Shown piece after piece: positions 48,560 through 64,000 of a stretch of 64,000 bases of DNA (its first letter is position 1; every line of letters begins with the position of its first letter). The DNA is from Brumimicrobium aurantiacum (lineage in GTDB: Bacteria > Bacteroidota > Bacteroidia > Flavobacteriales_D > Crocinitomicaceae), in NCBI RefSeq assembly GCF_003402975.1, contig NZ_QURB01000001.1, positions 496,001 to 560,000 on the forward strand, written 5' to 3'. Below the pieces are notes generated by a model. The model ran no database searches. It was not told the origin of the DNA and worked only from the letters and a program-made list of their open reading frames with translations. Both the position numbers and the translations under genes were made by a program.

Positions 48560-49238
48560 TAAATAGTGTAGCTACATGGTGTTGAAGTTTAGCCTTTATT
48601 TCATTCATATCTACTGAATGGCCCAACTCTTTTTGTAGGGAAGTTACGCTTTTATCTTCAATTCCGCAAGGAACAATATAATTAAAGTAATTCAAGTCTG
48701 TATTTACATTAAAGCCAATTCCATGCATTGTAACCCAACGGGAAGACTTTACACCCATAGCACAAATCTTACGTTCTTGATTCGTTCCACCGTCGATCCA
48801 AACACCAGTATATCCATCAACTCTTCCGCCTTTCACTCCATATTCTGCAATGGTAAGAATAACTGCTTCCTCCAAAAAACGCATGTATTTATGAATATCC
48901 GTAAAGAAATAAGTTTCCAAATCAAAAATCGGATACATAACCAATTGTCCAGGACCGTGATAGGTAATATCACCACCGCGATTGATTTTGTAATATGTGG
49001 CTTCGATTTCTTCTAAACGTTCTTCTGAAAGCAACAAATGAGATTGATCACCACTTTTCCCTAGTGTATATACGTGAGGATGCTCACAAAACAATAGAAA
49101 GTTTTTCGTTTTTTCTTCCGATTCGTTTCTGCCTTGTTCTATTTTAAGATCTATAGTTGACTTAAATAGCTGCTCTTGGTAATCCCATGCTTTTTTGTAG
49201 TCGATTAAGCCTAAATCTTCGAGAATTACTTCAGCCAT
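48534..49238 (-). CDS. lipB: Octanoyl-ACP:protein N-octanoyltransferase
   Basis: 234 residues. LipB transfers octanoate from ACP to lipoyl domains before LipA inserts sulfur. The signature RGGDITYHGPGQLVMYPIFDL and the catalytic pair Lys in KICAMGVKSSRWVTMHG and Cys in NYIVPCGIEDKSVTSL are present. Full length. It follows the PGI/PMI gene by six bases and overlaps the serine hydrolase gene. Confidence 0.95.
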   Translation of the reverse strand: MAEVILEDLGLIDYKKAWDYQEQLFKSTIDLKIEQGRNESEEKTKNFLLFCEHPHVYTLGKSGDQSHLLLSEERLEEIEATYYKINRGGDITYHGPGQLVMYPIFDLETYFFTDIHKYMRFLEEAVILTIAEYGVKGGRVDGYTGVWIDGGTNQERKICAMGVKSSRWVTMHGIGFNVNTDLNYFNYIVPCGIEDKSVTSLQKELGHSVDMNEIKAKLQHHVATLFNAKYTEKK

Positions 49239-49244
49239 GGTGAA

Positions 49245-50234: not shown

Positions 50235-50349
50235 TGACGTGTGTTTTAAATAGAAATAGCATGTTGAATAATTTTCAACGCTAATTTTTTGTAAAATAAA
50301 CGAAAAAAAGAAGATTATAGCGCCTTGTTACCATATAAATTTTAAAAAA

Positions 50350-50517
50350 ATGCTATTCCGTGTTAAGATTGATAAAAATGAATTGATTAATAGGACGAAT
50401 TATAGTAAAACTCAAGACGAATTGTATTTTTGTACATTGCTTATTGTTTCGTTTTTGATTTCAATTTTCACTACTTTAGAAATCAGCTCACAAGGTTGGT
50501 TCTGTGAAAATCATTAA
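50350..50517 (+). CDS. Possible small membrane peptide (55 residues)
   Basis: ATG at 50350 opens 55 codons, starting MLFRVKIDKNELINRT, with a hydrophobic stretch (CTLLIVSFLISIFTTL) and the end ISSQGWFCENH. The upstream sequence is A-rich, as in many Bacteroidota translation starts. Against it, the response regulator -7 box lies inside this frame and no homologue is known to me. It may be chance. Confidence 0.25.
   Translation: MLFRVKIDKNELINRTNYSKTQDELYFCTLLIVSFLISIFTTLEISSQGWFCENH
50425..50432 (+). promoter_or_regulatory. -7 box (TATTTTTG) upstream of the response regulator gene
   Basis: Perfect TAnnTTTG match, 117 bases before the ATG at 50550, which would leave a long leader. Confidence 0.45.
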
Positions 50518-50549
50518 AATCAATTTTTCGATACTTATACAAAGAATAA

Positions 50550-51251
50550 ATGCCAAATACATCTAAGAAAATATTACTGATTGAGGATGAAGAGAGTTTG
50601 AGTAACGTGGTTGAACTCAATTTAAAGCTCGAAGGTTTCAATGTTGACTGTATTTCTAACGGAAGAACAGCCTTTGATCATGCCCATCAAGTTGGTCAAT
50701 ATGATTTGGTCATTTTGGATGTGATGTTGCCTGAAGTAAGTGGTTGGGATATTTGCGAAATGTATAAAAGCGTTGCGGACACACCAATTCTATTTGTTTC
50801 TGCCAAGGGGACGTCAAGCGACAAGATTAAAGGATTAAAATTAGGAGCCGACGATTTTTTAGCCAAGCCTTTCGACCTTGAAGAATTGCTCTTACGTGTT
50901 CAGGTTTTAATTTTGAGACACCAAGGAAAAAAATCAAATGAACAAACGCTGAATTTAGGTGAGTTCCAAGTGAACTTGCTGACTTACGAAGTGAAAAAAG
51001 ACGATCAATTGATTTCTACTTTATCCAAAAGAGAAATTAAGTTATTGCAATTGTTTCATGAACACGAAGGTGAAGTGCTTTCACGTGATTTCATTTTAGA
51101 TAAAATATGGGGAAAAGACGCTTATCCAACTTCTAGAACCATCGATAATTACATTTTATCTTTCAGAAAACTCTTCGAAAAAGACGCCAAAAACCCTGAG
51201 TATTTCCATAGTATAAGAGGTGTTGGGTATAAGTTTGTTGGAAAGAAGTAG
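50550..51251 (+). CDS. OmpR/PhoB-type response regulator (orphan)
   Basis: 233 residues. The receiver domain has the acidic pocket (LLIEDEESL), phosphoacceptor Asp57 in YDLVILDVMLPEVSGWD and the conserved lysine in DDFLAKPFDLEELLLRV. The C-terminal winged helix (LSKREIKLLQLFHEHEGEVL, TSRTIDNYILSFRKLFEKD, YFHSIRGVGYKFVGKK) binds DNA. No histidine kinase gene is adjacent on either side, so its partner lies elsewhere. Confidence 0.93.
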   Translation: MPNTSKKILLIEDEESLSNVVELNLKLEGFNVDCISNGRTAFDHAHQVGQYDLVILDVMLPEVSGWDICEMYKSVADTPILFVSAKGTSSDKIKGLKLGADDFLAKPFDLEELLLRVQVLILRHQGKKSNEQTLNLGEFQVNLLTYEVKKDDQLISTLSKREIKLLQLFHEHEGEVLSRDFILDKIWGKDAYPTSRTIDNYILSFRKLFEKDAKNPEYFHSIRGVGYKFVGKK

Positions 51252-51352
51252 ATTTGGTTTTAAACAAACAGTTGTTTAAATTTGTATAAACCCCAAGGAT
51301 TGAGGTTTTTGGTGATTGAGAAATTAGTTACTTGTTTTAAAAATTAATAATT

Positions 51353-51559
51353 ATGCATCATACTTTTCACATAAAAGACTCTTCCAACCCAAAGGTAAAA
51401 GCTTTTTTAGAATATATTAAAAGTCTTGATTTTGTTCATGTAGAAAGTGATGATAAGGACAAAGCTGAGGAAATAAAAATAAGTCTAAAACAATCTTTCA
51501 AAGAGCTAAAACTAATGAAGGAGGGGAAAATTAAGGCAACTCCTGCAAAAGACTTATAA
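51353..51559 (+). CDS. Small antitoxin-like protein without a toxin neighbour
   Basis: 68 residues with a ...KAFLEYIKSLDFVHVES... N-terminal strand-helix and a helical C terminus (SLKQSFKELKLMKEGKIKAT) ending PAKDL. The LKLMKEGKIKATPAKDL ending resembles that of small Bacteroidota antitoxins that precede RelE/ParE-type toxins. No toxin frame follows; the next gene is convergent. It may be an orphan antitoxin. The assignment is by pattern only. Confidence 0.55.
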   Translation: MHHTFHIKDSSNPKVKAFLEYIKSLDFVHVESDDKDKAEEIKISLKQSFKELKLMKEGKIKATPAKDL

Positions 51560-51674
51560 AACCTGATTATTTCATAGAATTAATAGTATTGGTGTTTCGA
51601 AAAGTACTAATACTTGATCAAATGACTTTCAATAGACGGGACGAGAATGAACAAGCGTCCTTTAAGCCGTTTAA

Positions 51675-52613
51675 CTATTTCGAAACCTTCTTCACAACTA
51701 AACCATCTTCCGATTTTATTCTTAAAATATAACTGCCCTTCGACAGCTTGTCAAGATTAACTATTCTTTCGTTAAAAACAATTCCACTTTTCGCTATACG
51801 ACCATCAATATGCAAGATCGAATACTCCGTTTGATCCTTAATTCCTTTTAAATTAAGTGTAGAACTGAATGGATTTGGGTAGATATTCACATTTTCTTCT
51901 TTGCCATATTTCTCCGTTTCGACAGAACATCTAGAAAACCTGTAGACCATTCCTTCACTCGGGATATCATTCATAGTTTGATCATCTATAAAGTCGGGTG
52001 AATTGGGGTCACCTGATAGATAAGTTTTATTGTGGTTAGTGTAATCACCAATTCCAATAAACGGGCTTAAATTATTGTTCCAGAAAACATTTGAGTTGAT
52101 AGAATTTGGCCCTATTCTCACTTCAAAATCACCACATTCTTCGTATAACCAAAGTTGAAAATTAACTGTGTCATCAAACTCATGATCTTCTACAAACCCA
52201 AAATTCGCATACTGAACTTTCATTATACGATTACCAGCTGTGCCCTCGGTTAAATAATTGAGTTTAGAATTAAAACCATGGGTTGTATCAGATAAATCAC
52301 TATCAAACATGGAGATATAACACTTGTTTGTGTTCATTTCTTGAAACAGTGCATAACCGTCTTGCGCCAATCTCAAAGAGTCAAAAGTTCCATTCAATAA
52401 ATTATAGTCGAAACCGATAGGGATTTTATTATAGTATGTCAAAAAGGTTGTGTCCGAACCAAATACATGAGGGACTGTATCAGAAGGAATAATACTCAGA
52501 GAGTTACTTGATACCAAAGGTGTATATTGATCAGTGCTTGTTTCAACCGTATATGATTGAGCAAATGTGAATATACTTGACATTAAAAAGGTAAATAAGA
52601 GTTTATTTTTCAT
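51675..52613 (-). CDS. T9SS type-A sorting domain protein
   Basis: 312 residues from MKNKLLFTFLMSSIFTFAQS, a signal peptide; the frame is open to 52637 but that adds eight residues in front. The body is beta-rich (FDYNLLNGTFDSLRLAQDGY, FEVRIGPNSINSNVFW) with no recognised enzyme motif. The last ~75 residues are a type-A T9SS C-terminal domain (NVNIYPNPFSSTLNLKG, YSILHIDGRIAKSG, LSKGSYILRIKSEDG). Predicted surface-exposed or secreted; function unknown. Confidence 0.88.
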   Translation of the reverse strand: MKNKLLFTFLMSSIFTFAQSYTVETSTDQYTPLVSSNSLSIIPSDTVPHVFGSDTTFLTYYNKIPIGFDYNLLNGTFDSLRLAQDGYALFQEMNTNKCYISMFDSDLSDTTHGFNSKLNYLTEGTAGNRIMKVQYANFGFVEDHEFDDTVNFQLWLYEECGDFEVRIGPNSINSNVFWNNNLSPFIGIGDYTNHNKTYLSGDPNSPDFIDDQTMNDIPSEGMVYRFSRCSVETEKYGKEENVNIYPNPFSSTLNLKGIKDQTEYSILHIDGRIAKSGIVFNERIVNLDKLSKGSYILRIKSEDGLVVKKVSK

Positions 52614-52669
52614 TGTTATATTTTTTAGGTTATCCATTATTGCAAACTGTCGAACTTTCCCAACTATTC

Positions 52670-53467
52670 TTATTTCTCCGCATAAAACGCATCCAATGCA
52701 TTATACAATCCTGGATGCTCCACTCTTAATCGTTCTGGATTTTCAAAAAAGAATTCACTCACAACAGCTAAAAACTCAGCACGATTCGCTGCACCATAAT
52801 CTCTAATTGATGACGTTCCAAAGTCAATTTCATTCATTTTAATGTTTATGATGTGTAGCCATGGCATTAAGTCTACATCATTCATGGAATTCCCCAACAC
52901 CCCATCGATTTTTCCATCTTGCATATCTAGCACATGAATAAACTCATGGATGACCACGTTTTTGTGATCGGTATTGTCGTGAAAGCCTTCATGGACAGAT
53001 TTTCGGGATAACATCACTATTCCTTCCTTAGCTCCCCAACCCACCAATCCATGGGCCATTTGATTTGAATCTGGAATTTGAAATTTATCTGGATATAACT
53101 GAACTTCTTTGAGGTTTGCATAATTCCAACTTGAAAAACGAAAAACAGGAATTACAGCTCCCGCAGCAATCAATATTTTATCTTCATGAGAAACTTCTGT
53201 TTCCATTCCTCGGATCCTAACATTCAACAAGAAAACGTGTACTTTTCTTTCGAATTCTGTTTTTTCATCTCTTGTAAGTCGACTATAAAAATTGACTTTA
53301 TCCTGAAGTATTTGTCTCCATAATCCTGGAAATGGTTTCTTCGGATTATTGTTGTGAATAGGCTTCACTGAATTATGAAATTTTTGCCTTGAGTCCTTTA
53401 ACTTTCTGTATCCAATAAATAATCCTAACGCGAGTCCTGTGAGTAAGTATAAATTGAGATCCTTCAT
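52670..53467 (-). CDS. MtfA-like zinc-dependent peptidase (M90 family)
   Basis: 265 residues. A short N-terminal hydrophobic stretch (LYLLTGLALGLFIGYRKL) precedes the peptidase domain. The zinc motif is HEFIHVLDMQDG, with the downstream glutamate in AEFLAVVSEFFFENPERL, as in MtfA. In E. coli MtfA binds the regulator Mlc; here a membrane-tethered version is suggested. Full length. Monocistronic. Confidence 0.9.
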   Translation of the reverse strand: MKDLNLYLLTGLALGLFIGYRKLKDSRQKFHNSVKPIHNNNPKKPFPGLWRQILQDKVNFYSRLTRDEKTEFERKVHVFLLNVRIRGMETEVSHEDKILIAAGAVIPVFRFSSWNYANLKEVQLYPDKFQIPDSNQMAHGLVGWGAKEGIVMLSRKSVHEGFHDNTDHKNVVIHEFIHVLDMQDGKIDGVLGNSMNDVDLMPWLHIINIKMNEIDFGTSSIRDYGAANRAEFLAVVSEFFFENPERLRVEHPGLYNALDAFYAEK

Positions 53468-53707
53468 GGATTTAAAGATAATATTTCGACCGAGATTATA
53501 AAGCAGGTTTTATAAAAATTCATTACGATGGCTCTATGAAGGAGTCTTGACAAAAAATAAAAATGTTGAAACATAAGGTAAGCACGAATAGTTATTACAC
53601 TTATTTTAACTATTTTGGACACTATTTATAGGCGATTTTCAAATTAAAAGCTGATTCAGTTTCATTCACTGTAATACAATACTACTCACGATAACTCAGG
53701 TATAACT

Positions 53708-54451
53708 ATGACTTTCTTTTTTATTTTGATTTTAGTTTTTCTCATACATATTATTGGAAACATTAAAAACGATAGAGCATGGGATCACAACTTATTTACG
53801 AATGAACAACCGACAAAGGAAATGCCTCCTCATGATCCTTTATTGGAGGCCTACATAAGTCTCGGTGCGCTTATGGTTCGTAAAGACAGTTCTGCTTACA
53901 GAGAGAAAATACTGTATTTAAATAATTATTTCTCTAGGTATTTTCCAAATTCACATTATGATTTTGGACGCTCGTTTACAGAAAGTTTAAAAAATCCTAT
54001 TCGTCCACGTGTGATTTCGAATTGGCTACGTAGAAAGTTACCACATCGAAAACAGCGTTTACAAATCATGTATTTCCTCGCAAGTTTAGCCACTGTTGAC
54101 GGAACTATGAATGAGCGAGAAATAGCATTGTTAAAAGAGGTCAACACTTTGTTAAATCTTTCGACTAAAGATTTTGACAGTATTATTGCAATGTACACGC
54201 AACAACAAAAAAGAGAAAAATCTTCGGGTAATTCAACTTCACGAGCTACTAAACTGGAAGTCGCAAGTAAAGTTATGGGTGTTTCTACGAATGCTTCAAA
54301 AGAAGAAATAAAAAAAGCCTACCGTCGCTTGGTTAAATTGCACCATCCTGATGTTTTTGCCACTCAGTCGAAAGCACATCAAGAAATTGCCGAAAAGAGA
54401 TTTATAGAGATTCAAAAAGCATACGAAACCTTAGAAACGCGCTGGAAGTAG
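53708..54451 (+). CDS. Membrane-anchored TerB-like and J-domain co-chaperone (DjlA-like)
   Basis: 247 residues. Membrane anchor at residues 2-17 (TFFFILILVFLIHIIGNI), a central TerB-like helical domain (MYFLASLATVDGTMNEREIA), and a C-terminal J domain with the HPD motif (RRLVKLHHPDVFATQS). This is the architecture of DjlA, a DnaK partner at the inner membrane. Which DnaK it serves cannot be seen. Confidence 0.88.
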   Translation: MTFFFILILVFLIHIIGNIKNDRAWDHNLFTNEQPTKEMPPHDPLLEAYISLGALMVRKDSSAYREKILYLNNYFSRYFPNSHYDFGRSFTESLKNPIRPRVISNWLRRKLPHRKQRLQIMYFLASLATVDGTMNEREIALLKEVNTLLNLSTKDFDSIIAMYTQQQKREKSSGNSTSRATKLEVASKVMGVSTNASKEEIKKAYRRLVKLHHPDVFATQSKAHQEIAEKRFIEIQKAYETLETRWK

Positions 54452-54483
54452 TTTTTTTTTGAATCGTTTATTTCAGTACCGAT

Positions 54484-55155
54484 CTACCCTTGCATATATA
54501 ATGCTTGAATTCCAATTCCGGTATCAAAACAATGTGGTTTCCAAGAGGTATTGCTGGCGGTTTCGATTTTCTTCCCATTATTTTTATAGTGGTAGAATTT
54601 ACCTTCCTCTTCATTTAAATTTGTTTCCCAAATAATTTCTTTGGCTTTCACAACTTTCAAATAGCTTTTGGTCGACAAAACTAAATTTGGTTTTACAATT
54701 TTTAAGCGACAAAAATCGGAAAAGATAATGGTGAGTGTTTCGAGTGAATCATCATATGAAATAGCTTTTAACGTGTGTTTTACGTCTAATTTTCTTCCCA
54801 CTTGATCTCCCCAAATGGAAACAGAAAGACCACGTGCATATTCAAGTTTCTTGACTTGAAATAATTCAACCAACTCCTTCGGCTTGCACTTTAGAATATT
54901 GCTTGTTGAATTGGGTTCAAGTTCATCCAGATCATAAGAAGCATAAGTTCCTGACATCACAGAAATCACACCTCTTCTCAACATCATTTTAAAAAGTAAT
55001 CCGCTCGCGATAATTCCAAGAAACAAAACGAATACCGTAAGTATAATATTCAGCGGCGATGAAATGTCGATGTAAAATATAAATCCAATAAACACAAAAC
55101 CAGACAATAATGTGAGTGAACTAAATAGTGCTGCTATAAATCGAATTTCTTTCAT
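54484..55155 (-). CDS. Hypothetical protein with two N-terminal membrane helices
   Basis: 223 residues. Two transmembrane helices (FIAALFSSLTLLSGFVFIGF, LNIILTVFVLFLGIIASGLL) are followed by a soluble domain of mixed alpha/beta composition (CKPKELVELFQVKKLEYARG, LETLTIIFSDFCRLKIVKPN). No family recognised. It is convergent with the J-domain gene. Confidence 0.7.
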   Translation of the reverse strand: MKEIRFIAALFSSLTLLSGFVFIGFIFYIDISSPLNIILTVFVLFLGIIASGLLFKMMLRRGVISVMSGTYASYDLDELEPNSTSNILKCKPKELVELFQVKKLEYARGLSVSIWGDQVGRKLDVKHTLKAISYDDSLETLTIIFSDFCRLKIVKPNLVLSTKSYLKVVKAKEIIWETNLNEEEGKFYHYKNNGKKIETASNTSWKPHCFDTGIGIQALYMQG

Positions 55156-55242
55156 TTCTCGATCAAAGATAAAATATATTTCATGGTCTAAAGAAGAAGA
55201 GATAACAATTTAATTTAGGTGAGAAGTAGTCTATTTCATTCT

Positions 55243-56685
55243 CTATTGCTTTATCAACATTTGCTTGGCAATAGCATTCCTACTGTAAACCTTTAAGATA
55301 TAATTTCCAGTTTCCACAAAACAAATGTCAAAGACACCATTTGTTTTGGATTGATACACAATTCTACCGCTTAAATCAACGATTTCTAATTTTTCAAAAT
55401 CGTCTATATTTTTTATTTGAAATTGATCCCTTGTAGGATTTGGAAATACAATCAATTCTTTGTTTTCATAGGTAATATTGCTTGACACACCTGATGAACA
55501 TTCGTTTTCACAACCAGCAGAAAAGCTTGCTGTTGCAGGAATGTTAAACCAATTTGTAGTTGAATAAGTAGCATCATCAACTTCTACACAAGTTAAATCT
55601 GGGTTTCCTGTACAATCAAAGCCACCATGATACATATTGTAATTGTTTCCATTTTTAACATTTAAACACGTTAAGGCATTATCATGACATTTTACAACCC
55701 TTAAATTTGGATTTCCAGAAACATTTAATTCTGAAATGTTATTCTCTCCGCAATACAAGCTTTCTAAATTTAGATTTTGACTAAGATCTAAACTGGTTAA
55801 CAAGTTGTCTGTACATCTTAAAATTTCCAAATTAGGATTAAAGCTAACATCAAGTGAATCGATCATGTTATTCATGCAACTCAAATATATCAAAGCATTG
55901 TTTTGACTAACATCTAATTCAGTCAATTGATTGAGCTGGCAGAAAAGACCAGTTAACTGACTACAATTTCTCACGTCGAGATTGGTGATGGCATTGTCAT
56001 AACAAGCTAAAAGATCAAGTTGAGTTAAGCCTGTAACATCTAATGCTGTTAAGTTATTACCTGTGCAACTCAACACTATCAAGCCTGAATTATTGTCCAA
56101 ATTCAACGCATTTAGATTATTCCCGTCACAATAAAGTGAATCTAAATTGACATTAGCACTTAAATCTATATTATTAAAAGTGTTGTATGATATCACTAAA
56201 TTCGTAAGGTTTGTGAGATTGGAAACATCAATACTTCCAAGTGAATTACCCTGAACATTTAGAAATTCAAGGTTATTATTCTGACTTAAATCAATTGATG
56301 TTAGGTTGTTTCCAGCAATTTCAAAATGAGTTAATCCTATATTTTGTGAAACGTCTAAACTACTGAGGTTATTTCCGTTGCAATTCAGTTCAATTAGCGC
56401 TGTATTTTGAGTAACATTTAATGAAGTTAAGTTATTTACTTCAAGATTTAGGTATTCCAGTGCAAGGAAATCTTCAATCCCAGTGAGATCTGAAATATCC
56501 TGATTATATAAATCCAAAGTAGTTATCCCACTAATGTTTGCAGTAAGTACGGCTCCATCTGTTGGACCGCTATCATAACCTAAATTGATGAGGGCTGTTT
56601 CGAAATTAACATCTGGAATAGTCGTAGTTTGAGCCACTGAATTGAATCCAATAAACAAAAGGCTCACAAAAATCAATCGTTTCAT
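55243..56685 (-). CDS. Leucine-rich-repeat protein with T9SS type-A sorting domain
   Basis: 480 residues. Signal peptide MKRLIFVSLLFIGFNSVAQ, a capping region (IPDVNFETALINLGYDSGP), then about 14 to 15 LRR units of ~21 residues with the pattern L-x2-L-D-V-S-x-N-x2-L-x2-L (e.g. NNLSSLDVSQNIGLTHFEIA). A Cys-containing cap follows (NPDLTCVEVDDATYSTTNW), then the type-A sorting domain (IVFPNPTRDQFQIKN, LEIVDLSGRIVYQS, TGNYILKVYSR). A surface protein probably involved in protein or glycan binding; ligand unknown. Confidence 0.9.
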   Translation of the reverse strand: MKRLIFVSLLFIGFNSVAQTTTIPDVNFETALINLGYDSGPTDGAVLTANISGITTLDLYNQDISDLTGIEDFLALEYLNLEVNNLTSLNVTQNTALIELNCNGNNLSSLDVSQNIGLTHFEIAGNNLTSIDLSQNNNLEFLNVQGNSLGSIDVSNLTNLTNLVISYNTFNNIDLSANVNLDSLYCDGNNLNALNLDNNSGLIVLSCTGNNLTALDVTGLTQLDLLACYDNAITNLDVRNCSQLTGLFCQLNQLTELDVSQNNALIYLSCMNNMIDSLDVSFNPNLEILRCTDNLLTSLDLSQNLNLESLYCGENNISELNVSGNPNLRVVKCHDNALTCLNVKNGNNYNMYHGGFDCTGNPDLTCVEVDDATYSTTNWFNIPATASFSAGCENECSSGVSSNITYENKELIVFPNPTRDQFQIKNIDDFEKLEIVDLSGRIVYQSKTNGVFDICFVETGNYILKVYSRNAIAKQMLIKQ

Positions 56686-56880
56686 AATGTCTTATTTTGT
56701 TATTAAGTTTCTACTTTAAAATACGACAAAATGAAGAAATGGGTTGGGAGATGGGATGTCATTTGTTGAACAAATCCTCTCGTAACACAAAGTATTTGAA
56801 GTTATTGATGTAAGGTAAATCGATACCTAAAACTGCATTATCTTCTAAAAATAAAAAGTCTAGTTTTTAGGCTTCGAACC

Positions 56881-56897
56881 CGCTACCGAAGGTAGCG
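56881..56897. other. GC-rich hairpin in the intergenic region
   Basis: CGCTACC-GAA-GGTAGCG is a perfect 7-bp stem with a 3-base loop. No T-run follows on either strand, so it is not a normal terminator. It lies between the LRR gene and the 160-residue gene. Role unknown. Confidence 0.5.
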
Positions 56898-56975
56898 TTC
56901 AACACTAAGCACAATGAGGTTAAGTCTTACTTGAGTTTATTGATGCTTAATTATTTAGGCAAGTTTTTTTCTTAC

Positions 56976-57458
56976 TTAAAAATTCGGAATTCTTTCTGGA
57001 ATTTTACTGATAAGATTCTTCGCTTCTAAATCAGATACATTCAAAGGTATTTCCTTCTTTCTTCCTTTTTCTAAATGAATTGTCAGCTGACTTTTATTGG
57101 TCGGAAAATAAAGTTCCCAAAGGGTATGAAATGCCAAGCCGTATCCATCATATCTCTTTCTTTCAAAGAATCTCGACTGAATTTCGGAAAGAGGAATTTC
57201 ATAATTGTCCTTTATAGTTCCTGACAGTTTTGAAATTCTGACCTTCATTTTCTCAGCCGTTAATTCTATTATGGTTTCTTCATGAATTATTAACTCTATA
57301 AATACAGAGAAAGCAATTGCTGCAGCAAAAATCAGCATCACAGTTGAGTTGTCCCTTAAACCATAAGTCAAAAGCAGTCCAATCAAAATTACAGCAAAGC
57401 CAATTCTAAAGAGTCTTCGTCCTTTCGATTTCAATATGTATTTGTCGTCTGTTTTCAA
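56976..57458 (-). CDS. Hypothetical membrane protein, PH-domain-like
   Basis: 160 residues. Two adjacent hydrophobic helices near the N terminus (LFRIGFAVILIGLLLTYGL, STVMLIFAAAIAFSVFIELI) followed by a beta-rich domain (IIELTAEKMKVRISKLSG, DGYGLAFHTLWELYFPTNKS), as in small bacterial membrane proteins with a PH-like domain. Not assigned further. It lies directly downstream of the methyltransferase/kinase island but outside its flanking repeat. Confidence 0.65.
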   Translation of the reverse strand: MKTDDKYILKSKGRRLFRIGFAVILIGLLLTYGLRDNSTVMLIFAAAIAFSVFIELIIHEETIIELTAEKMKVRISKLSGTIKDNYEIPLSEIQSRFFERKRYDGYGLAFHTLWELYFPTNKSQLTIHLEKGRKKEIPLNVSDLEAKNLISKIPERIPNF

Positions 57459-57630
57459 ATTGTAGCTGACGCTTTGTGTATGAGTAGTGACGGATTTAAA
57501 GCACTAACTTTCAGAATTATAACAAACCTTTAATTTATTTAATTTCTTTCGATTAAGCAATTAAACCGCTATTTTTTATATACGTTGTTACCTGGCTGGC
57601 TTTTCTTTCCGCAAACTTGCTAGTGTTGGC

Positions 57631-57662
57631 GTGAAAGCTCTTTTAAATTTGTGAGGCACGAG
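57631..57662. repeat. Left copy of the 32-bp direct repeat flanking the island
   Basis: Starts GTGAAAGCTCTTTT and ends GTGAGGCACGAG. It matches 62428-62459 at 29 of 32 positions. Weaker similarity continues to a shared TTGGCT at 57690-57695, overlapping the stop codon of the receiver-HEPN gene. The copy at the other end lies just upstream of the operon promoter, so the two bracket exactly four genes. Candidate attachment or insertion-boundary site. Confidence 0.75.
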
Positions 57663-57693
57663 AAAACTTTAAATGTACTTGAACTTGCGTTGG

Positions 57694-58623
57694 CTATTTA
57701 TCTAGTTCCATTTTTAAACTGTCTAAATTTCCCTTATGATTTATTATGTCAAGCCTGATTTGTTTGCACAACTCTTCATCAAAAGTTATATCCTCAGATT
57801 TATTACGAAATACTTCAATTCCATCTTCATTTATCTCTAGAATGGAATGAGCAAATTGGTTCCTAATTTTTATAACTCGCAGTTTAAATTCATCAATAAA
57901 ATCGTCAAAATTAATTTCTTCAATAATCGATTTAAGAGTATTCGCTCTTTGCGAAAACGAGAATAGTAATGGGTCGTTAAGCACCTTATCTATTCTACCA
58001 TTCTTTTTATATTTACTAACTTCTTCAAATTTTCTTTTGTAAAATGAAATGATTTCATCAAAGATTGATTCTTTAACTTTTTGACTATCTGTTTTTGTCA
58101 AATAGTCCGAAATTAATTCAAAACAAAATTCATCTAAAATGCTTGTCTCGTGCATTATCATTCCTCGCATTGCGACAATGTTTTGGAATTTACGGACAGT
58201 CAATTCTATTAGCTCTTTAGCTTTATTAAATATTGCTGAATAATGATCACCTCCAAGAACTCTTGAGCTTGAGAAAAAAGTAATTCTATCAAGTTTATGA
58301 GTGTCAACAATTTCACCTTGAGCTGAATAAAACATTATTTCTGTGAATATATTTTTATCACGTATTGTTTTAATAATTTCTGCTCCATTTCTCGTATTTC
58401 CCTTTGTTTCATCTAGATGATAATCAGTCATTATTAAATCATATTCGCCTGCTTTATCAAGTTTGGAAAATAATTCTTCTTCGGTTCTTACAAAATCAAT
58501 AGTCTCCTTAAAACCAAGTGATTTAATATATTCTTTCAAGTCTTCAATATCGTCCTGATAATCTGAAAGTACGACAGATTTAATTTTATCATCAAGCCAA
58601 AGTAATTTATAATCTAATTTCAT
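57694..58623 (-). CDS. Receiver domain fused to a HEPN-like helical domain (candidate phospho-regulated RNase effector)
   Basis: 309 residues. Residues 1-125 form a CheY-like receiver: the acidic pair Asp11-Asp12 (LLWLDDKI), phosphoacceptor Asp67 in LIMTDYHLDE, and Ser100 in IMFYSAQGE. Residues ~130-305 are all-helical and unlike any DNA-binding output domain. They contain IRNQFAHS (Arg254-x4-His259), the R-x4-6-H signature of HEPN RNases, and a second R-x4-H spacing at Arg153/His158 (RGMIMHETS). HEPN domains are the toxin part of many toxin-antitoxin and abortive infection systems. The family call is by motif; RNase activity is inference. It follows the kinase-like gene by one base and is last in the operon. 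Confidence 0.75.
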   Translation of the reverse strand: MKLDYKLLWLDDKIKSVVLSDYQDDIEDLKEYIKSLGFKETIDFVRTEEELFSKLDKAGEYDLIMTDYHLDETKGNTRNGAEIIKTIRDKNIFTEIMFYSAQGEIVDTHKLDRITFFSSSRVLGGDHYSAIFNKAKELIELTVRKFQNIVAMRGMIMHETSILDEFCFELISDYLTKTDSQKVKESIFDEIISFYKRKFEEVSKYKKNGRIDKVLNDPLLFSFSQRANTLKSIIEEINFDDFIDEFKLRVIKIRNQFAHSILEINEDGIEVFRNKSEDITFDEELCKQIRLDIINHKGNLDSLKMELDK

Positions 58624-58624
58624 T

Positions 58625-60922
58625 TTATTGTAGTGCTATTCTAAAAGTTATTCCTTCCTTGCTTGTTTTCTCGACTATAATCTCACCTCCTAAATCACTA
58701 TTAACGATTTCTTTTGCCTGAAATAATCCAATTCCAGAACCACTAGTTGTTGTAAATCCTAAATCGAAAATTGATTCTAAATGGTTTTCAGAGATTCCTT
58801 TGCCATTATCAGAAACAAATAGATATAGTTTCTTTTTCAAAACTTTAAAGCTAAAATTAATTTCGGTTGCTTTTGCTTTTTCTGAATTTGAAATGAAAAT
58901 ATCAACCAATGTTGTTATTTCAAGTGGTCTAAATATCTTTTCTAATTCTAAACCGTTCTTGTTTATGCTAATAGACATTTTGGTGTCGATAATTTTATCT
59001 TCAAAGAGGTAAACTTCATTAATATAGTCCTCAATGAAATTTACCAAGTCCACTTCAATCTCAGATGCTGTAAGGCTAAAATTAGCCTTGGTAATAAATT
59101 TAGCTATCGAGTTAATTTTAGTAGTCTCTCTTGAGATTACGGCAATATGTTTTTGACTTTTAGTATCAATATTTTCTATGCCTAAATGTCTAATAAGAAG
59201 TTTGATGTTTCTATGAATTCTACCCGAAGAATGATAAACCTGATGTTGTAACGAAACTATTCTTTCTTTGTCTGTACCAATTAAAGCACCTTGGAAAGCT
59301 CCTTTTTTCTTTTCAATTTCAAGTTCACCAGAAATTTTTACATTCTCCTTAGTGACTTCAAATTCAGACTCTTGAGCTTCTTTTGTTATATTTTCTAGTT
59401 GTTCAAGTCGTTTTAGTTCTTTTTTAATGTCAGTTGCTAATTCTCCAGGATTGAAGTTACCTTCTTTGACATTTTTTATAATTTTAGAAAGGTTACTTTT
59501 TACTGTTTTACTAGATTTTTCATCAATAATGTTGATTATATCTTGTGAAAGATTGAAAGAAACTAATCCTTTTGATTTAGTTAGCGATTCAATTAGTTTT
59601 CTTAGTTCTTCTTTCTTTTTCAATTCTGGTAAGCTAATGAATTCATCTTCTGATAAATCATTACCCCAGTTCACAATATCAACTACAAATTTTTCTAATC
59701 TTCTAAGGGTGACTAATAACCATTCCTCAAGCTGAATGTAAGTTGGGGTTCGCATTAAACCATCACCACGACTTGAAGTCTCTCTTAATTGGTCATTAGT
59801 TTCATCTTCTGTATCAAAAATTGATATAAAACCTATTTGTTCTCGAGTTCCAATAAAGCGATTATAGCCTTGAGCTTTTCTATTGTCAAATTTAAACTGG
59901 TCTTCACCTCTTTCTCCATAAGGATAAACTCTAATGCCATTTTTGTAAACCAATAAATGACCATATTGAACTGGTTGCATTTTCATTCTTCTAGAAAAGG
60001 TGGCTTTAGCAGACTGATTTAGATAGAATAACTCAAGATGTACATTAAATAAATCTTTAAAAGGGTTTTCTTCAATTATTTCATATACGAGCTGACCGGC
60101 TTCATATAAACTTGTTTGAATTTCATTCTTTTTTTTGCTTGAAACTGACGAAATGATTTTAGTTGTTTTTAAATCAATAGTCTCAAAAATTAAGTTTTCA
60201 ATCTTTCCATTTACCTTATGATGATATTCTTTCTCGTTTTTATCGTTTTCAAATTCTTCTGGGACAATGAGTTCAATTGAAAACTCATCTTCTTCAAACT
60301 GGTTATTTGGATTAATTAACTTTGCTAGAGAGTTTTTCAATTCTAAAAACTTACCCTTATCCCAATCACTTTTAAGGTTTGAAATTTCTAAAACTGTTCC
60401 GTGTTCTAAATTATAGTTGCTTTTAGGAATGGTTTCGTGAAGTACACTTATGTTTACAAATTCTTCTTTTAAATTACCTTCGAACTTATCCCATTCAGTT
60501 AATAAAGTTTCGACTTTTGAATTTTCCTCATCTTTAACTGTTTCCAGATATAATTCTCCACCAAGTCTATCACAAGAAAATCGTCCAATGCCTTTTGCTC
60601 CAGCATACGCTCTTTTTATCTTGATTTTATCCCGATAATCATAACTGTCTTCTTCTGTTCCTTCTTTTTTCGCAGAATAAGCAACAAATAGCCATTTATT
60701 AATTAAATCATCATAATTCATTCCTTTGCCATTATCCTTGATTATGATTTTGGCATTTTCGGAATAAATATTCTCAAATGTTATTTCAACTTTTGTTGCG
60801 TGTGCATCATATGAGTTTTTGACTAACTCGAAAACAGCAATGAAATCATCACTAATTAAGTCACTTCCTATGATGTTCTTTAATGCAGAACTAATTTTAA
60901 ATTGTAGTGGTTTTTTCTGCAT
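58625..60922 (-). CDS. Dual-GHKL sensor protein: Hsp90/MutL/MORC-type ATPase fused to a histidine-kinase catalytic domain
   Basis: 765 residues, no membrane segment. The N-terminal GHKL ATPase has Glu32 and Asn36 in FELVKNSYDAHA, DNGKGM (63-68) and GAKGIGRFSCDRLGG (108-121). A transducer-like segment follows near residue 330 (LLVYKNGIRVYPYGERGED). A helical, charged linker covers ~430-550. A possible phosphoacceptor helix is at ~555-575 (SLQHQVYHSSGRIHRN, with His560, His564 and His570). The C-terminal kinase ATPase has an N box (FISNSEKAKATEI, Asn679), G1 DNGKGI at 705-710 and G2 GSGIGLFQAKEI from 728. It probably senses a cytoplasmic signal, perhaps DNA, and phosphorylates the adjacent receiver protein. 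The ATG overlaps the methyltransferase stop. Confidence 0.85.
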   Translation of the reverse strand: MQKKPLQFKISSALKNIIGSDLISDDFIAVFELVKNSYDAHATKVEITFENIYSENAKIIIKDNGKGMNYDDLINKWLFVAYSAKKEGTEEDSYDYRDKIKIKRAYAGAKGIGRFSCDRLGGELYLETVKDEENSKVETLLTEWDKFEGNLKEEFVNISVLHETIPKSNYNLEHGTVLEISNLKSDWDKGKFLELKNSLAKLINPNNQFEEDEFSIELIVPEEFENDKNEKEYHHKVNGKIENLIFETIDLKTTKIISSVSSKKKNEIQTSLYEAGQLVYEIIEENPFKDLFNVHLELFYLNQSAKATFSRRMKMQPVQYGHLLVYKNGIRVYPYGERGEDQFKFDNRKAQGYNRFIGTREQIGFISIFDTEDETNDQLRETSSRGDGLMRTPTYIQLEEWLLVTLRRLEKFVVDIVNWGNDLSEDEFISLPELKKKEELRKLIESLTKSKGLVSFNLSQDIINIIDEKSSKTVKSNLSKIIKNVKEGNFNPGELATDIKKELKRLEQLENITKEAQESEFEVTKENVKISGELEIEKKKGAFQGALIGTDKERIVSLQHQVYHSSGRIHRNIKLLIRHLGIENIDTKSQKHIAVISRETTKINSIAKFITKANFSLTASEIEVDLVNFIEDYINEVYLFEDKIIDTKMSISINKNGLELEKIFRPLEITTLVDIFISNSEKAKATEINFSFKVLKKKLYLFVSDNGKGISENHLESIFDLGFTTTSGSGIGLFQAKEIVNSDLGGEIIVEKTSKEGITFRIALQ

Positions 60923-62127
60923 TAGGAAATAAGCTGTTTTAAAACTAAACCTGCTTGTTCACCAAATAATGGTGGAATTGCATTTCCAATTTGTGAATAT
61001 CTCGGAACCTCTTGTGTTCTTCTTTTTCCTCCAGTGGTGTATTTACCCTTAAATTCATAAGTGTCAGGAAAAGACTGTATTCTTGCGTACTCACGAACTG
61101 TCATAATTCTAGGTTCGCAGTAGTGAATATAATCGTCTGGTAATGTTGTAATTGTAGGTGTTGGTTTATTTGCTTGAAGTATTTTTGTACTGCTTTTTTT
61201 AAGTTGGAATCTTTCTCTGTATGCTGAGCTTGTAAGACTTTCATCCAATGCAATTTTAAACCTAGTTTTTATTGTATCTGTATGTTTTGCAAACCTATGA
61301 CTATCAACTCTACTATTTTGTCTTTTATATTTTCGAACAAATTTTTGATAATTTGATAGAGGTTCACCATAAACTCCTTCTTTAAATTTAGGTGTTTCAG
61401 ATTCAATTACTCCGTTAGATTGAAGTAAGTCAGAAATTGCATTTTCTAAGGTAGGATTCAGAGTAAGATTTTTGCTAACTAAAAAAGCTTCTTTGTTATT
61501 TTGAATTCCATTAAAGAAGCTTTCTTTATTTATAGTTGGATTCTCTTTAATAAAATCATTTTGAATTCCGACTAAAATAAATCTTGTTCGTTTTTGAGGA
61601 ATTCCATATTTGGAAAAATCTATTAACTGTCCTTTTACAGAATATCCTAAATTTTGCAGTTGTTCGACAACGTAAGCTGAATATGCTTTACCTTTTTTGT
61701 CATTATTTTTGAAACCAAGGGTGAAACCTTTGACATTTTCGAAGAATATCAATTTTGGTTTTACATAGTCAATGAATTTTATGTAAGAATTAATCAAGTC
61801 ATTTCTAGAGTCATTTTCGATTCTTCTTCCAGCCATTGAGAATCCTTGGCAAGGCGGTCCACCTGCTACCAAATCGATTTTTCCTCTAAGCTTAATTAGT
61901 TCATTTGAATTATTCTCTAGAATTTCATTTATATCGTGATGTTTTTGTTCCAACCAATTAGGCCAGTCAAAATGCTTTTTCTTTTTGATTAAATTATGTT
62001 CAAGAGTTTTAAAAGCATCTTCGCTTTTTTCAATTGCAAAAGCACCCTTCCATCCTGCATTATGTAAACCAAGAGAAAGTCCTCCGCAACCCGAGAATAG
62101 GTCTATATATGTTTTAGATTTGTTCAT
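60922..62127 (-). CDS. DNA (cytosine-5) methyltransferase
   Basis: 401 residues with all catalytic C5-MTase motifs: motif I DLFSGCGGLSLGLHNAG, motif IV GGPPCQGFSMAGR (nucleophile Cys93), motif VI FFENVKG (Glu130), motif VIII GIPQKRTRFILVGI and motif X near the C terminus (QIGNAIPPLFG). The target recognition domain between VIII and IX is intact. It methylates cytosine in a specific site that cannot be read from the protein. It starts directly after the XRE gene stop and overlaps the kinase-like gene by one base. No cognate restriction nuclease is encoded nearby. Confidence 0.95.
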   Translation of the reverse strand: MNKSKTYIDLFSGCGGLSLGLHNAGWKGAFAIEKSEDAFKTLEHNLIKKKKHFDWPNWLEQKHHDINEILENNSNELIKLRGKIDLVAGGPPCQGFSMAGRRIENDSRNDLINSYIKFIDYVKPKLIFFENVKGFTLGFKNNDKKGKAYSAYVVEQLQNLGYSVKGQLIDFSKYGIPQKRTRFILVGIQNDFIKENPTINKESFFNGIQNNKEAFLVSKNLTLNPTLENAISDLLQSNGVIESETPKFKEGVYGEPLSNYQKFVRKYKRQNSRVDSHRFAKHTDTIKTRFKIALDESLTSSAYRERFQLKKSSTKILQANKPTPTITTLPDDYIHYCEPRIMTVREYARIQSFPDTYEFKGKYTTGGKRRTQEVPRYSQIGNAIPPLFGEQAGLVLKQLIS

Positions 62128-62343
62128 TTAAGCACTTTCTTTTGTTGAGTATAATAATTCGCGTATGTCGATATCCAATACGCTCGCTATTCTCATTAAA
62201 TTTTCAAGCGATGGTTGTCTCGCGTTAGTACACCATTGGGATATAGTAGATTCATCTTTTCCAATTTGTTCAGCTAACCATTTGTTTTTTCTTCTTGTTT
62301 CAGCAAGAGCAACCTTAATTCTGTTGATTTCTACTTTAGCCAA
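62128..62343 (-). CDS. XRE-family helix-turn-helix controller protein
   Basis: 71 residues, nearly all HTH: KNKWLAEQIGKDESTISQWC as helices 2-3, then NARQPSLENLMRIASVLDID. Such small XRE proteins commonly precede methyltransferase genes in Bacteroidota and act as controller-type autoregulators. It is first in the four-gene operon, zero bases from the methyltransferase ATG. A palindrome overlapping its own promoter is a likely binding site. Confidence 0.88.
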   Translation of the reverse strand: MAKVEINRIKVALAETRRKNKWLAEQIGKDESTISQWCTNARQPSLENLMRIASVLDIDIRELLYSTKESA

Positions 62344-62345
62344 TT

Positions 62346-62366
62346 TATTTGTGTTTTACGCAAATA
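62346..62366. promoter_or_regulatory. Palindromic operator candidate of the XRE controller
   Basis: Arms TATTTG-T-GT and AC-G-CAAATA around a 3-base centre make an interrupted 21-bp palindrome with eight matched positions per arm. It sits between the controller ATG (62343) and the -7 box and overlaps that box, the expected place for an autorepressor. Confidence 0.6.
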
Positions 62367-62368
62367 TA
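62361..62368 (-). promoter_or_regulatory. -7 box (TATATTTG) of the island operon
   Basis: Minus-strand TATATTTG is a perfect TAnnTTTG match whose downstream edge is 17 bases before the XRE ATG, predicting a very short leader. Confidence 0.65.
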
Positions 62369-62427
62369 TTAACTTATCTGGAATAAAATTTACTTTTAAA
62401 TTTTTTCTTTTAGGGAGGTGGTGGAAA

Positions 62428-62459
62428 GTGAAAGCTCTTTTTATTTTGTGAGGTACGAG
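62428..62459. repeat. Right copy of the 32-bp direct repeat flanking the island
   Basis: Starts GTGAAAGCTCTTTT and ends GTGAGGTACGAG, in the same orientation as 57631-57662, 29 of 32 identical. Similarity extends weakly to TTGGCT at 62487-62492. Confidence 0.75.
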
Positions 62460-62804
62460 CAAAACAATATATGCTTAACTGTGCGGTTGGCTTTTTCTGT
62501 ATGAAACACAACAACAAACTATACACATTGCGCTATCGCCCGTATCTTTTCCATCAAATATAGCATTAATCTCCATACAAAACCTTGCCACATTATCTAT
62601 TTTCAATAGCTTATCGCAAGAAGTTGAAAATAGGTTATTCGCGTAAGAATATAAATATTCGTATATTATTCGAATAATTATACAGCCAAAAAGAAGGAGT
62701 AAACTTGAGGACGTAGTCGGAAATGGTGGCCTAGAAATAAAATTATATCATAAAAAGTTGCTTATTTGGATTAAAGATGAACTCAGAAATTGCATCTTTG
62801 AAGT

Positions 62805-62834
62805 CCTCCCCCTTGTCCCCCTCCAAAGGGGGAA
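62805..62834. repeat. CCCCCTT...AAGGGGG dispersed-type repeat
   Basis: A C/T-rich run ending in CCTCCAAAGGGGGAAG forms an imperfect hairpin (CCCCCTT with AAGGGGG). It stands out in this AT-rich region and resembles a short intergenic repeat I recall as scattered through many Bacteroidota genomes. Confidence 0.5.
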
Positions 62835-62907
62835 GAGCTTACCAACAAGTGTTTTAGAGCATTGAAAATGTATAAACCAACAAAATGTATCAGAGACCTA
62901 AAAAAAC

Positions 62908-63015
62908 TTACCCCAATTCCAACAGGACCGAACAATGGTCTGATCCCATCACGTCGTTTAGAATGTCGGCATTTTTGATTTTAAAAACCGTATTGTCGCA
63001 TTTGTAAGTTGTAAT
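62908..63015 (-). pseudogene. C-terminal remnant of exodeoxyribonuclease III
   Basis: The minus-strand frame from 63015 (just after an in-frame TAG) to the TAA at 62908-62910 encodes 35 residues ending DVMGSDHCSVLLELG. GSDHC-V is the conserved C-terminal catalytic motif (Asp-His) of the ExoIII/AP endonuclease family. Everything upstream of these codons is missing, so this is a relic of an xth gene, not a functional one. Confidence 0.75.
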
Positions 63016-63068
63016 CTACTCATTTTACAATTGCTTTCCTCAATCGTTCATCAATTTAAAATTAACCC

Positions 63069-63076
63069 TATTTTTG
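63069..63076 (+). promoter_or_regulatory. -7 box (TATTTTTG) of the dCMP deaminase gene
   Basis: Perfect TAnnTTTG match, 18 bases upstream of the ATG at 63095. Confidence 0.6.
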
Positions 63077-63094
63077 TCACTATAATAATGGATT

Positions 63095-63529
63095 ATGAGC
63101 AAAGCAAAGCAACTTCGATATGACAAGGCCTATTTAAGAATGGCTAAAGAGTGGGCGCAACTCTCCCACTGTAACCGTAAACAAGTTGGTGCCTTAATTG
63201 TTAAAGATGATATGATCATTTCTGACGGTTACAACGGTACGCCATCTGGATTTGATAATTGTTGTGAAGATGAAAATCAAAAAACGCATTGGTATGTATT
63301 GCATGCGGAAGCCAACGCCATTTTAAAAGTTGCAAAATCAACAAACAATGCGAAAGGTGCCACATTATATTTGACAATGTCTCCATGTAAAGATTGTAGT
63401 AAATTGGTTTTACAAGCGGGAATTAAACGTGTTGTATATATCGATCACTATAAAGACGATTCTGGAGTACATTTTTTAAAAACCGCTGGAGTAAATATCG
63501 AGCAAATTAAAGACATAGAGAATGAATAA
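63095..63529 (+). CDS. Deoxycytidylate (dCMP) deaminase family protein
   Basis: 144 residues. Zinc-dependent deaminase; dCMP to dUMP feeds thymidylate synthesis. Zinc and catalytic motifs are HAEANAIL (His, Glu) and SPCKDCSKLV (two Cys), with QVGALIVKDDMIISDGYNGT upstream. Full length for the family. The next gene starts eight bases before the stop of this one. Confidence 0.93.
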   Translation: MSKAKQLRYDKAYLRMAKEWAQLSHCNRKQVGALIVKDDMIISDGYNGTPSGFDNCCEDENQKTHWYVLHAEANAILKVAKSTNNAKGATLYLTMSPCKDCSKLVLQAGIKRVVYIDHYKDDSGVHFLKTAGVNIEQIKDIENE

Positions 63530-64000
63530 TTCAAACAAGGCTATATATCCATTAATCGGAAGTTTACTTATTGCCATAGGTTTACTTTTAGGTGTTTCTC
63601 TAGGGAAGGGAAAAACTTCTGGATCTTCTATCGAAGGGAAATACGAACAAAAATTAACGGATATTATTCAGGTTTTGGATCGTGAATATGTTGATTCTAT
63701 TGATAAAAAAGAACTTTTCGAAAAGACAATTACTGATTTATTGCATGGACTTGATCCGCACTCAAACTATATTGCTGCAGAAGATCTTGCAGCCTTAAGT
63801 GAAGGAATTCAAGGGAAGTTTGGTGGTGTCGGAATTCGATTTACAATTTATGACGACACTTTGAGCGTTGTGAATGTTATTGACCAATCTCCTGCTTATA
63901 GAACTGGAGTTCAGAAATTTGATCAAATTATCAATGTAGATGGAGAAGACATTGCCAATGTTGGCTTGTCGAATGAACATGTTAGGGAATTACTCAAAGG
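63522..64000 (+). CDS. S41 family C-terminal processing protease, 5' part
   Basis: The ATG at 63522 overlaps the dCMP deaminase stop; the frame runs off the window after 159 codons. An N-terminal membrane anchor (YPLIGSLLIAIGLLLGVSLG) is followed by the CTP helical region (DLLHGLDPHSNYIAAEDLAAL) and the start of a PDZ domain (GKFGGVGIRFTIYDDTLSVV, AYRTGVQKFDQIINVDGEDI). The catalytic Ser-Lys part lies beyond the window. It probably cleaves periplasmic proteins. Confidence 0.92.
   Translation, partial: MNNSNKAIYPLIGSLLIAIGLLLGVSLGKGKTSGSSIEGKYEQKLTDIIQVLDREYVDSIDKKELFEKTITDLLHGLDPHSNYIAAEDLAALSEGIQGKFGGVGIRFTIYDDTLSVVNVIDQSPAYRTGVQKFDQIINVDGEDIANVGLSNEHVRELLK

Follow-up and report, generated by a model that had tools for sequence, protein, structure and literature searches.

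The bacterium Brumimicrobium aurantiacum carries an operon that joins a C5-cytosine DNA methyltransferase to a two-component pair of unusual make-up: a soluble sensor protein with two GHKL ATPases, and a response regulator that ends in a HEPN-like domain. The operon lies in a stretch of 64,000 nucleotides (GCF_003402975.1, contig NZ_QURB01000001.1, positions 496,001-560,000, forward strand), here called the window, to which the coordinates below refer. On balance we favour the reading that this is an anti-invader operon resembling restriction-modification (R-M), except that a relay stands where the nuclease would be: the methylase would mark self and the ATPase-kinase would signal to a toxic RNase. 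The genes follow one another in the order helix-turn-helix (HTH) gene, methylase, sensor and response regulator, with junctions of 0, -1 and +1 nucleotides; the last base of the methylase stop is the first base of the sensor start. The operon and its parts are as follows.

62128-62343, minus strand: small Cro/C1-type HTH gene, controller-like (Pfam HTH_3, E 3.8e-10), with an inferred TTG start at 62343.
60922-62127, minus strand: C5-cytosine DNA methyltransferase, 401 residues (Pfam DNA_methylase, E 2.6e-58; PADLOC MTase_II, E 2.1e-86).
58625-60922, minus strand: double-GHKL sensor kinase, 765 residues, with an ATG start and no internal stop.
59672-60892, minus strand: sensor residues 11-417, MORC/Hsp90-type ATPase and transducer-like domain (fold match to MORC3 and to Hsp90/TRAP1/SMCHD1).
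59087-59269, minus strand: sensor residues 552-612, two-helix DHp-like hairpin (model helices 552-580 and 587-612).
59243-59245, minus strand: His560, predicted phosphoacceptor (93/93 homologues; 8/9 in the sample found with the N-terminal part alone).
58628-59065, minus strand: sensor residues 620-765, histidine-kinase catalytic (CA) domain (HATPase_c and WalK fold match).
57694-58623, minus strand: response regulator with receiver and HEPN-like output, 309 residues, beginning one spacer base past the sensor stop.
58249-58623, minus strand: regulator residues 1-125, receiver domain (Response_reg, PorX fold match, D67).
58423-58425, minus strand: Asp67, receiver phosphoacceptor position (92/92 regulators).
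57697-58245, minus strand: regulator residues 127-309, HEPN-like helical domain (PADLOC and Pfam HEPN matches).
57847-57864, minus strand: R254-N-Q-F-A-H259, the R-x4-H motif (R and H in 79/79 long regulators).

The sensor is one chain with two GHKL ATPases from different subfamilies. Pfam places HATPase_c_3 at residues 28-140 (E 2.7e-26) and HATPase_c at residues 668-764 (E 1.2e-21), both far over cut-off, and the two domains occur together in all 62 aligned sensor proteins, the window's own included. The AlphaFold2 model made from these 62 sequences has a predicted local distance difference test score (pLDDT) of 78.1 and a predicted template modelling score of 0.57, with pLDDT below 50 at residues 81-108, 540-550 and 614-619. 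It comprises an ATPase and a second alpha/beta domain reaching to about residue 417, a long helix (coiled coil) at 492-547, a hairpin formed by helices 552-580 and 587-612, and a C-terminal alpha/beta domain. Among Protein Data Bank (PDB) chains ranked by Foldseek, the MORC3 ATPase cassette (5ix2) aligns with residues 11-417 (Z 18.2, 289 residues, 4.1 Å) and yeast Hsp90 Hsc82 with a similar range (Z 18.3, 281 residues); TRAP1 and SMCHD1 also align. Residues 620-765 match the histidine-kinase catalytic domain of WalK (4u7o; Z 18.8, 144 residues, 2.4 Å). It is the MORC/Hsp90 match at one end and the WalK match at the other that assign the two ATPases to different subfamilies.

The preliminary description of this gene had proposed exactly such a chain, with the first GHKL domain in the input position of a kinase, and the Pfam and fold matches bear it out. 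The motifs it had read at the N-terminus (ELVKN, DNGKGM, GAKGIGRF) and the N, G1 and G2 residues at the C-terminus stand as first described, and the transducer-like segment that it placed after the first ATPase corresponds to the MORC3-type match, ATPase plus transducer, over 11-417. The best NCBIfam match of the sensor is the BbrUII/HgiDII restriction enzyme family (NF050001; E 1.2e-23), confined to residues 13-217 and, at 83.6 bits, short of the cut-off of 550. The trait that marks the paraMORC/MORC proteins, a GHKL and S5/transducer module within an R-M operon, is present, given the MORC3 match over 11-417 and the C5 methylase in the operon. The domain make-up first described is thus upheld, and the DNA- or protein-clamp role proposed along with it for the N-terminal module would be a putative one. 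The description had overlooked that proteins with two GHKL domains encoded next to a C5 methylase had been published before, as the accessible part of Bellieny-Rabelo et al. 2021 (PMC8011034) makes clear.

Conservation was read in homologues from two sources: 76 loci on viral contigs, and the 80 best of at least 500 relatives on genome contigs. Scanning the viral contigs with the single protein gave one locus, and an alignment was used as the query instead to reach the 76. The conservation set holds 93 sequences, the window and 92 homologues with a sensor frame above 650 bits; loci whose best sensor frame scored 650 bits or less were left aside, among them L011-L014, L026, L029-L090 and L125. 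The genome scan used N-terminal patterns that contained no C-terminal residues, and the best full-length matches were retained, a selection biased towards chains that have a kinase end, though not towards any particular histidine. The N-terminal ATPase residues E32, N36, D63, G65, G67, G108, G111 and G113 are each present in 93/93, figures inflated by those N-terminal patterns. In the C-terminal kinase domain N679, G730 and G732 are invariant (93/93), D705 and G707 are each found in 90/93, and G709 is the least conserved ATP-site residue at 88/93.

The same alignment settles which histidine is the candidate phosphoacceptor. Three had been put forward, and within residues 550-580 the homologues single out His560, which is histidine in 93/93 sensors; His564 and His570, histidine in just 35 and 8 of the 93, are ruled out. 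The linker therefore keeps a conserved histidine and the C-terminal ATP-binding residues survive in 88-93 of the 93 sequences, the two features on which the kinase reading had been made to depend. A second sample came from a search of 395 genomes of the phylum in which only the N-terminal part served as query. Matches at E<=1e-20 occurred in 47 genomes, and 11 exceeded 350 bits, the window among them; nine of the other ten were fetched and read. Eight of these nine keep His560 and the C-terminal ATP site, and in the ninth (L219) the sensor frame of 565 residues ends short of both. One structural superposition on the kinase HK853 begins at His560 (model 560-765 against 6azr 259-477). With a DHp hairpin, an invariant histidine in it, and the N, G1 and G2 residues, the C-terminal half has the parts of a histidine kinase, and His560 is its predicted phosphoacceptor.

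The partner gene was taken simply as the next co-directional gene after the sensor (93 loci, 79 of them with a product of at least 265 residues); the regulator set numbers 92, since the regulator of L140 is truncated by the contig end. Pfam Response_reg matches the window regulator at E 5.5e-5, under the cut-off, and matches 57 of 68 aligned regulators at E<=0.01. The model of the regulator (pLDDT 87.5) shows a receiver followed by a mainly helical domain that includes a small beta hairpin, and the receiver part superposes on that of PorX (Z 13.9, 117 residues). D67, S/T100 and D/E11 are each present in 92/92 regulators, and position 12 is D in 81 and N in 11. The (beta-alpha)5 fold, the phosphoacceptor aspartate, the acidic pair and the Ser/Thr of a receiver are all there. 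The preliminary description had rightly expected a receiver protein as partner, but it had missed the HEPN-like output domain of that protein, as well as the C5 methylase and HTH gene of the operon.

Two observations weigh against an ordinary phosphorelay. First, the canonical lysine after strand 5 is seemingly absent: the window has Ser119, and the column holds Arg in 48, Thr in 16 and Leu in 12 of the 92 regulators, with Lys outside its five commonest entries in what is a gappy stretch of the alignment. By the definition given in the accessible text of PMC12632262 a receiver lacking this lysine would be a pseudo-receiver; the same text states that such substitutions need not abolish phosphorylation. 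This apparent loss is the chief point that speaks against an ordinary relay. Second, the residue following His560 is Gln in 48, His in 30 and Asp in 3 of the 93 sensors, and Glu or Asp is the residue reported at this place of the H-box for HisKA and HEF_HK (PMC8011034, as far as available). Both would suit an arrangement in which ATP drives contact without phosphotransfer; the atypical receiver would be a docking module, and the C-terminal domain a pseudokinase or dimer clamp. A docking module would not need the invariant residues, however. Phosphotransfer depends on them: His560 (93/93), Asp67 and S/T100 (92/92 each) and the ATP-site residues of the kinase (88-93 of the 93). We regard the contact arrangement as improbable.

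The output domain is very probably a HEPN domain. R254-x4-H259 is present in all 79 regulators of at least 265 residues, and the R is followed by N (RNxxxH) in 76 of them; R-x4-6-H is the catalytic, defining motif of HEPN RNases. The HEPN superfamily is the subject of PMC3710099. In the model, which is mostly helical in this part, the motif stands at the end of the helix 243-258. Searched alone with PADLOC, the window's output domain matches the Csx1/Csm6 CARF+HEPN model (E 9.2e-4) and CARF_HEPN (E 1.2e-3), within the C-terminal part of these profiles. For 63 aligned output domains the commonest Pfam matches at E<=1 are HEPN_RiboL-PSP (7), HEPN_MAE_28990 (7), Apea (4) and Swt1 (4), and DUF4145 (2) and HepT-like (2) occur as well, with a best E of 2.2e-6, and the regulator of L023 matches the NCBIfam HepT toxin (E 0.0011). 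A profile of the output domain was also compared with a profile built from six HEPN_RiboL-PSP frames from the order, four of which carry RNxxAH and the other two RNILVH and RHIIAH. This comparison scored 24.6 (E 0.0039) with both motifs in register, and thirteen other profile-profile comparisons scored 13.6 or less. The six frames came from seven loci and were picked by motif (L178 was omitted); five have the listed frame length, and the sixth, L179, is a match under the family cut-off in a frame of different length.

Several results count against the assignment. The HEPN matches of individual output domains are weak, and the same list of Pfam families for the 63 domains (25 of 130 families listed) includes ApoB100_C (4) and HIP1_clath_bdg (3). 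Non-HEPN models such as AbiB, HerA and BrxL also appear, singly, among the PADLOC matches of the output domain. The hhalign probability of the HEPN profile-profile match is just 8.6%. A PDB sequence search with the output-domain profile returned five matches at E 0.29-0.92, none a HEPN protein, and in the structure search with the full-length regulator receivers filled the list, so that the fold comparison covers the receiver part. Taken with the conserved motif, the domain would be a predicted RNase and a putative toxic effector. The host genome encodes a separate HEPN_RiboL-PSP protein (G000:C18:67364-68014; E 9.6e-22) with an RNDIAH motif.

The methylase is a near-constant companion of the sensor, and this linkage holds across loci from several phyla. 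An open reading frame (ORF) with C5-methylase motifs lies within three ORFs of the sensor in 89 of the 92 homologous loci, counted by the motifs PCQ and ENV in frames of 150-600 residues and not by profile. It is upstream and co-directional in 79, convergent and downstream in 6, and otherwise placed in 4; the three misses (L027, L099, L100) each have a contig end nearby on one flank. In 52/92 loci the sensor gene overlaps the regulator gene by 4 nucleotides. An HTH gene similar to the window's stands within 700 base pairs upstream of the methylase in 11 of the 79 loci with a co-directional upstream methylase. Pfam finds no stand-alone or site-specific restriction endonuclease among the four operon proteins of the window. 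Homologues also occur on plasmids and on virus-like contigs; Campylobacter accounts for 43 of 87 plasmid records matched. One IMG/VR virus-like contig (L015) carries methylase, sensor (52% identical) and regulator together. Campylobacter conjugative plasmids (L013, L014) hold a distant version of the module, with sensor kinase, response regulator and a convergent dcm gene.

The tight methylase-sensor-regulator operon, the lack of a stand-alone restriction enzyme by Pfam and the plasmid and virus-like homes of homologues would equally suit a sensor that guards the methylase and not the DNA. Failure of the methylase, through phage inhibition or loss of the element, would then trigger the HEPN RNase, and the operon would be an addiction or anti-anti-restriction module. 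PrrC, which guards EcoprrI, is a precedent. The resemblance of the sensor N-terminus to a named restriction-enzyme family (BbrUII/HgiDII) speaks for DNA as the signal instead, as does the HpaII-type nuclease kept in three loci described below, and we consider the guard arrangement unlikely, if less so than contact without phosphotransfer.

Further genes accompany the operon at some loci. A PNKP-type 3'-phosphatase gene is found directly 3' of the receiver-HEPN regulator at L017:9368-9820 (HAD_PNKP, E 1.3e-36) and L148:10210-10683 (E 7.1e-30), and L018:9416-9871 is likewise PNKP-type by its similar start only. An end phosphatase beside a predicted RNase might serve as an antidote or as a second step. 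Repair genes suited to the deamination of methylcytosine also occur, namely Vsr in L145:1115-1546 and an HhH-GPD glycosylase in L147:10106-10843; in L118:4046-5653 there are genes that resemble HNH and MutY/EndoIII-type proteins by appearance only.

The output of the system is exchanged between loci. This can be summarised as (i) six of the 92 loci (L020, L118, L121, L146, L156, L167) have a regulator without the HEPN part, followed by a caspase-like protein of 220-251 residues; (ii) three (L145, L151, L164) combine a bare-receiver regulator with a gene for an HpaII-type restriction enzyme that is flanked by methylase and sensor (RE_HpaII E 5.3e-144 in L145 and 8.5e-141 in L151, with L164 assigned by sequence likeness only); (iii) an HNH_2 protein is added in some HEPN loci (L108, E 1.4e-10; L104, L110, L111 and L172 by similar start only), and in two more distant loci on virus-like contigs (L046, L049) the receiver is paired with an HNH protein. 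A more distant Stenotrophomonas plasmid locus (L011) repeats the first arrangement. The caspase-like label rests on His64-Gly65 and Cys102, invariant in 7/7 of these proteins, in a His-Gly...Cys layout that we take to be the caspase-like protease dyad; Pfam gave no caspase family for three of them or for those of L020 and L011, and an NCBIfam search of two gave none either. In a tree of the sensor built from 41 of the 93 rows, the caspase-like type requires at least three changes on well-supported branches, and its row L020 has a long branch. At L011 a Sir2 protein (L011:9472-10122; E 8.2e-24) is convergent to the caspase-like protein.

We would argue from the exchange of outputs that sensor and receiver are the core that signals, onto which different toxins can be plugged. 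Four loci (L117, L119, L120, L122) count against the favoured reading of the operon, as they have a bare receiver and no evident effector, and among the ORFs listed for them no conserved partner was seen. Tentatively, and with rather less confidence than we place in an anti-invader role for the operon itself, we suggest a signalling class of restriction, in which a MORC-type ATPase would recognise unmarked DNA and a His-Asp relay would keep this step separate from killing. A single sensor could then serve interchangeable outputs, be it a HEPN RNase, a caspase-like protease or an HpaII or HNH nuclease, and the cell would take lost methylation as a phosphorylation signal.

The operon occupies a variable site in the genome that relatives use for defence genes, as the site is empty in three relatives and holds defence-type cargo in three. 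A dCMP deaminase gene downstream of the island has a strong match in 10/10 genomes of the genus, the organism's own included, and in the window this gene and the left flank (50550-51251) are 11.8 kb apart. The same site was read in six of the nine other genomes of the genus. Matches to the flanking genes lie 48, 36 and 387 base pairs apart in G001, G008 and G002, with no insert. The inserts of the other three encode, in G004, the S and M subunits of a type I R-M system, an AAA_21 protein and one product without family (no R subunit is seen in the stretch); in G003, an AbiJ_NTD3-AAA protein with an HNH protein; and in G005, ParD, ParE and Phd proteins. Among the matches listed for the other 58 genomes there is no full-length sensor, partial matches only, and no tRNA was found as insertion target in 44000-64000. 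One gene of this variable stretch in the window (54484-55155) recurs with 50% identity in a relative's island (L209:10435-11103), by which the cargo of the site is apparently in part common to relatives.

Histidine kinase and response regulator make a very common signalling pair, and the operon might for that reason be an ordinary housekeeping two-component system that regulates transcription, with the methylase adjacent by chance. Against this, no DNA-binding output was found in the window regulator, which has just the receiver and the HEPN-like domain; the methylase linkage is near-constant across phyla; the site is variable and the listed matches of the other 58 genomes contain no full-length sensor; and the output is replaced by an HpaII enzyme or a caspase-like protein. 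We give this explanation very little credence.

The operon shares features with several known systems, among them Detocs, a defensive two-component system mentioned in PMC11249213 and PMC10952713. In Detocs a sensor kinase fires a receiver-fused toxic effector within a defence operon, and the window also pairs a kinase with a receiver-fused effector, if the HEPN-like domain has that role. Detocs has three genes and, in its best-described form, an ATP-cleaving PNP effector, whereas the window has a HEPN-like effector, a MORC-type ATPase as input and a C5 methylase; no PNP family appears among the Pfam matches of the window regulator or those listed for the 68 regulators. Csx1/Csm6, the best PADLOC match of the output domain, likewise places a regulatory domain ahead of HEPN, but in the window a receiver stands where the CARF sensor is. 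BbrUII/HgiDII (NF050001) and, in the accessible part of PMC2292703, the paraMORC/MORC proteins of R-M operons share with the window a methylase-linked, N-terminal GHKL ATPase; in contrast to BbrUII/HgiDII, the window protein matches over 13-217 only and ends in a histidine kinase. In the GHKL-Shedu protein VcSduA (paraMORC3-like; PMC12137116, available in part) a defence effector is hypothesised to be under the control of a GHKL ATPase whose middle domain is clamp-like, and control of an effector by a GHKL ATPase is proposed here too. Its nuclease is in the same chain, whereas in the window control would run through the kinase and a separate regulator.

The closest published family is that of PMC8011034. 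As far as its accessible text goes, it describes HATPase_c_3 + HEF_HK (PF19191) + HATPase_c proteins beside Response_reg_2 (PF19192) genes and C5 methylases, and suggests that these form a two-component system with links to R-M and kinship to paraMORCs. Common to both families are HATPase_c_3, DHp and HATPase_c in one soluble protein, an adjacent regulator gene and a C5 methylase (often upstream in HEF_HK). The window family differs in having mostly Gln or His after the H-box histidine and a HEPN-like regulator output; in the text available, PMC8011034 reports no other known domain in its regulators and its main text does not use the word HEPN. PF19191 and PF19192 were rejected as the home of the window family, as neither model matched: PF19191 has no match at E<=1 in the window sensor, none in the organism's own genome and one in 59 genomes (G038), and PF19192 has none in the window regulator and weak ones in 2/68 aligned regulators (best E 1.4e-4). 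In G038, which matches both models, a C5 methylase adjoins the sensor and the regulator ends with a TPSCD motif; motifs similar to it (TPSCD/NPACD) occur in Campylobacter and Enterobacter plasmid regulators. Distant regulators at L012:8132-9205, L014:8138-9202 and L092 (a frame of 605 residues) end in a region with a TPSCD or NPACD motif, for which no Pfam family is reported in L012 and L014, and which is a candidate new effector.

Among the matches listed in the literature searched, no description of a receiver-HEPN regulator with a C5 methylase was found. The abbreviations in a figure legend of PMC13092281 (available in part), which concerns predicted systems, include HATPase and REC. What is new, as far as the searched literature shows, is the family itself, its HEPN-like output and the swapping of outputs between loci; the double-GHKL sensor was already known.

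We propose that the C5 methylase would mark host sites by cytosine methylation, and that a dimer of the N-terminal MORC/MutL-type ATPase of the sensor would close on unmarked DNA or on a sign of methylase failure. Closure driven by ATP would rearrange the coiled coil and the DHp helices, allowing the C-terminal kinase to phosphorylate His560. The phosphate would move from His560 to Asp67 of the partner receiver, and phosphorylation of Asp67 would free or dimerise the HEPN domain, which would then cleave RNA and halt the cell or the invader. The sensing of unmodified DNA is proposed from the gene neighbours and the likeness to BbrUII/HgiDII. Sequence and models establish the domain make-up, the operon, the invariant His, Asp and R-x4-H, the exchange of outputs and the variable site; phosphotransfer, RNase activity, the signal and the outcome are inferred from these.

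MORC-family ATPases are relatives of eukaryotic silencing ATPases. If the proposal is true, the operon would be a restriction-like system that reports on DNA rather than cutting it, with the methylase defining self, a MORC-family ATPase detecting the rest and a two-component relay driving a suicide RNase. A function would be gained for the MORC-kinase family, whose output was not known when it was described in 2021, and receiver domains would join CARF as switches of HEPN toxins. What prokaryotic MORC-like ATPases sense would become testable by a phospho-readout.

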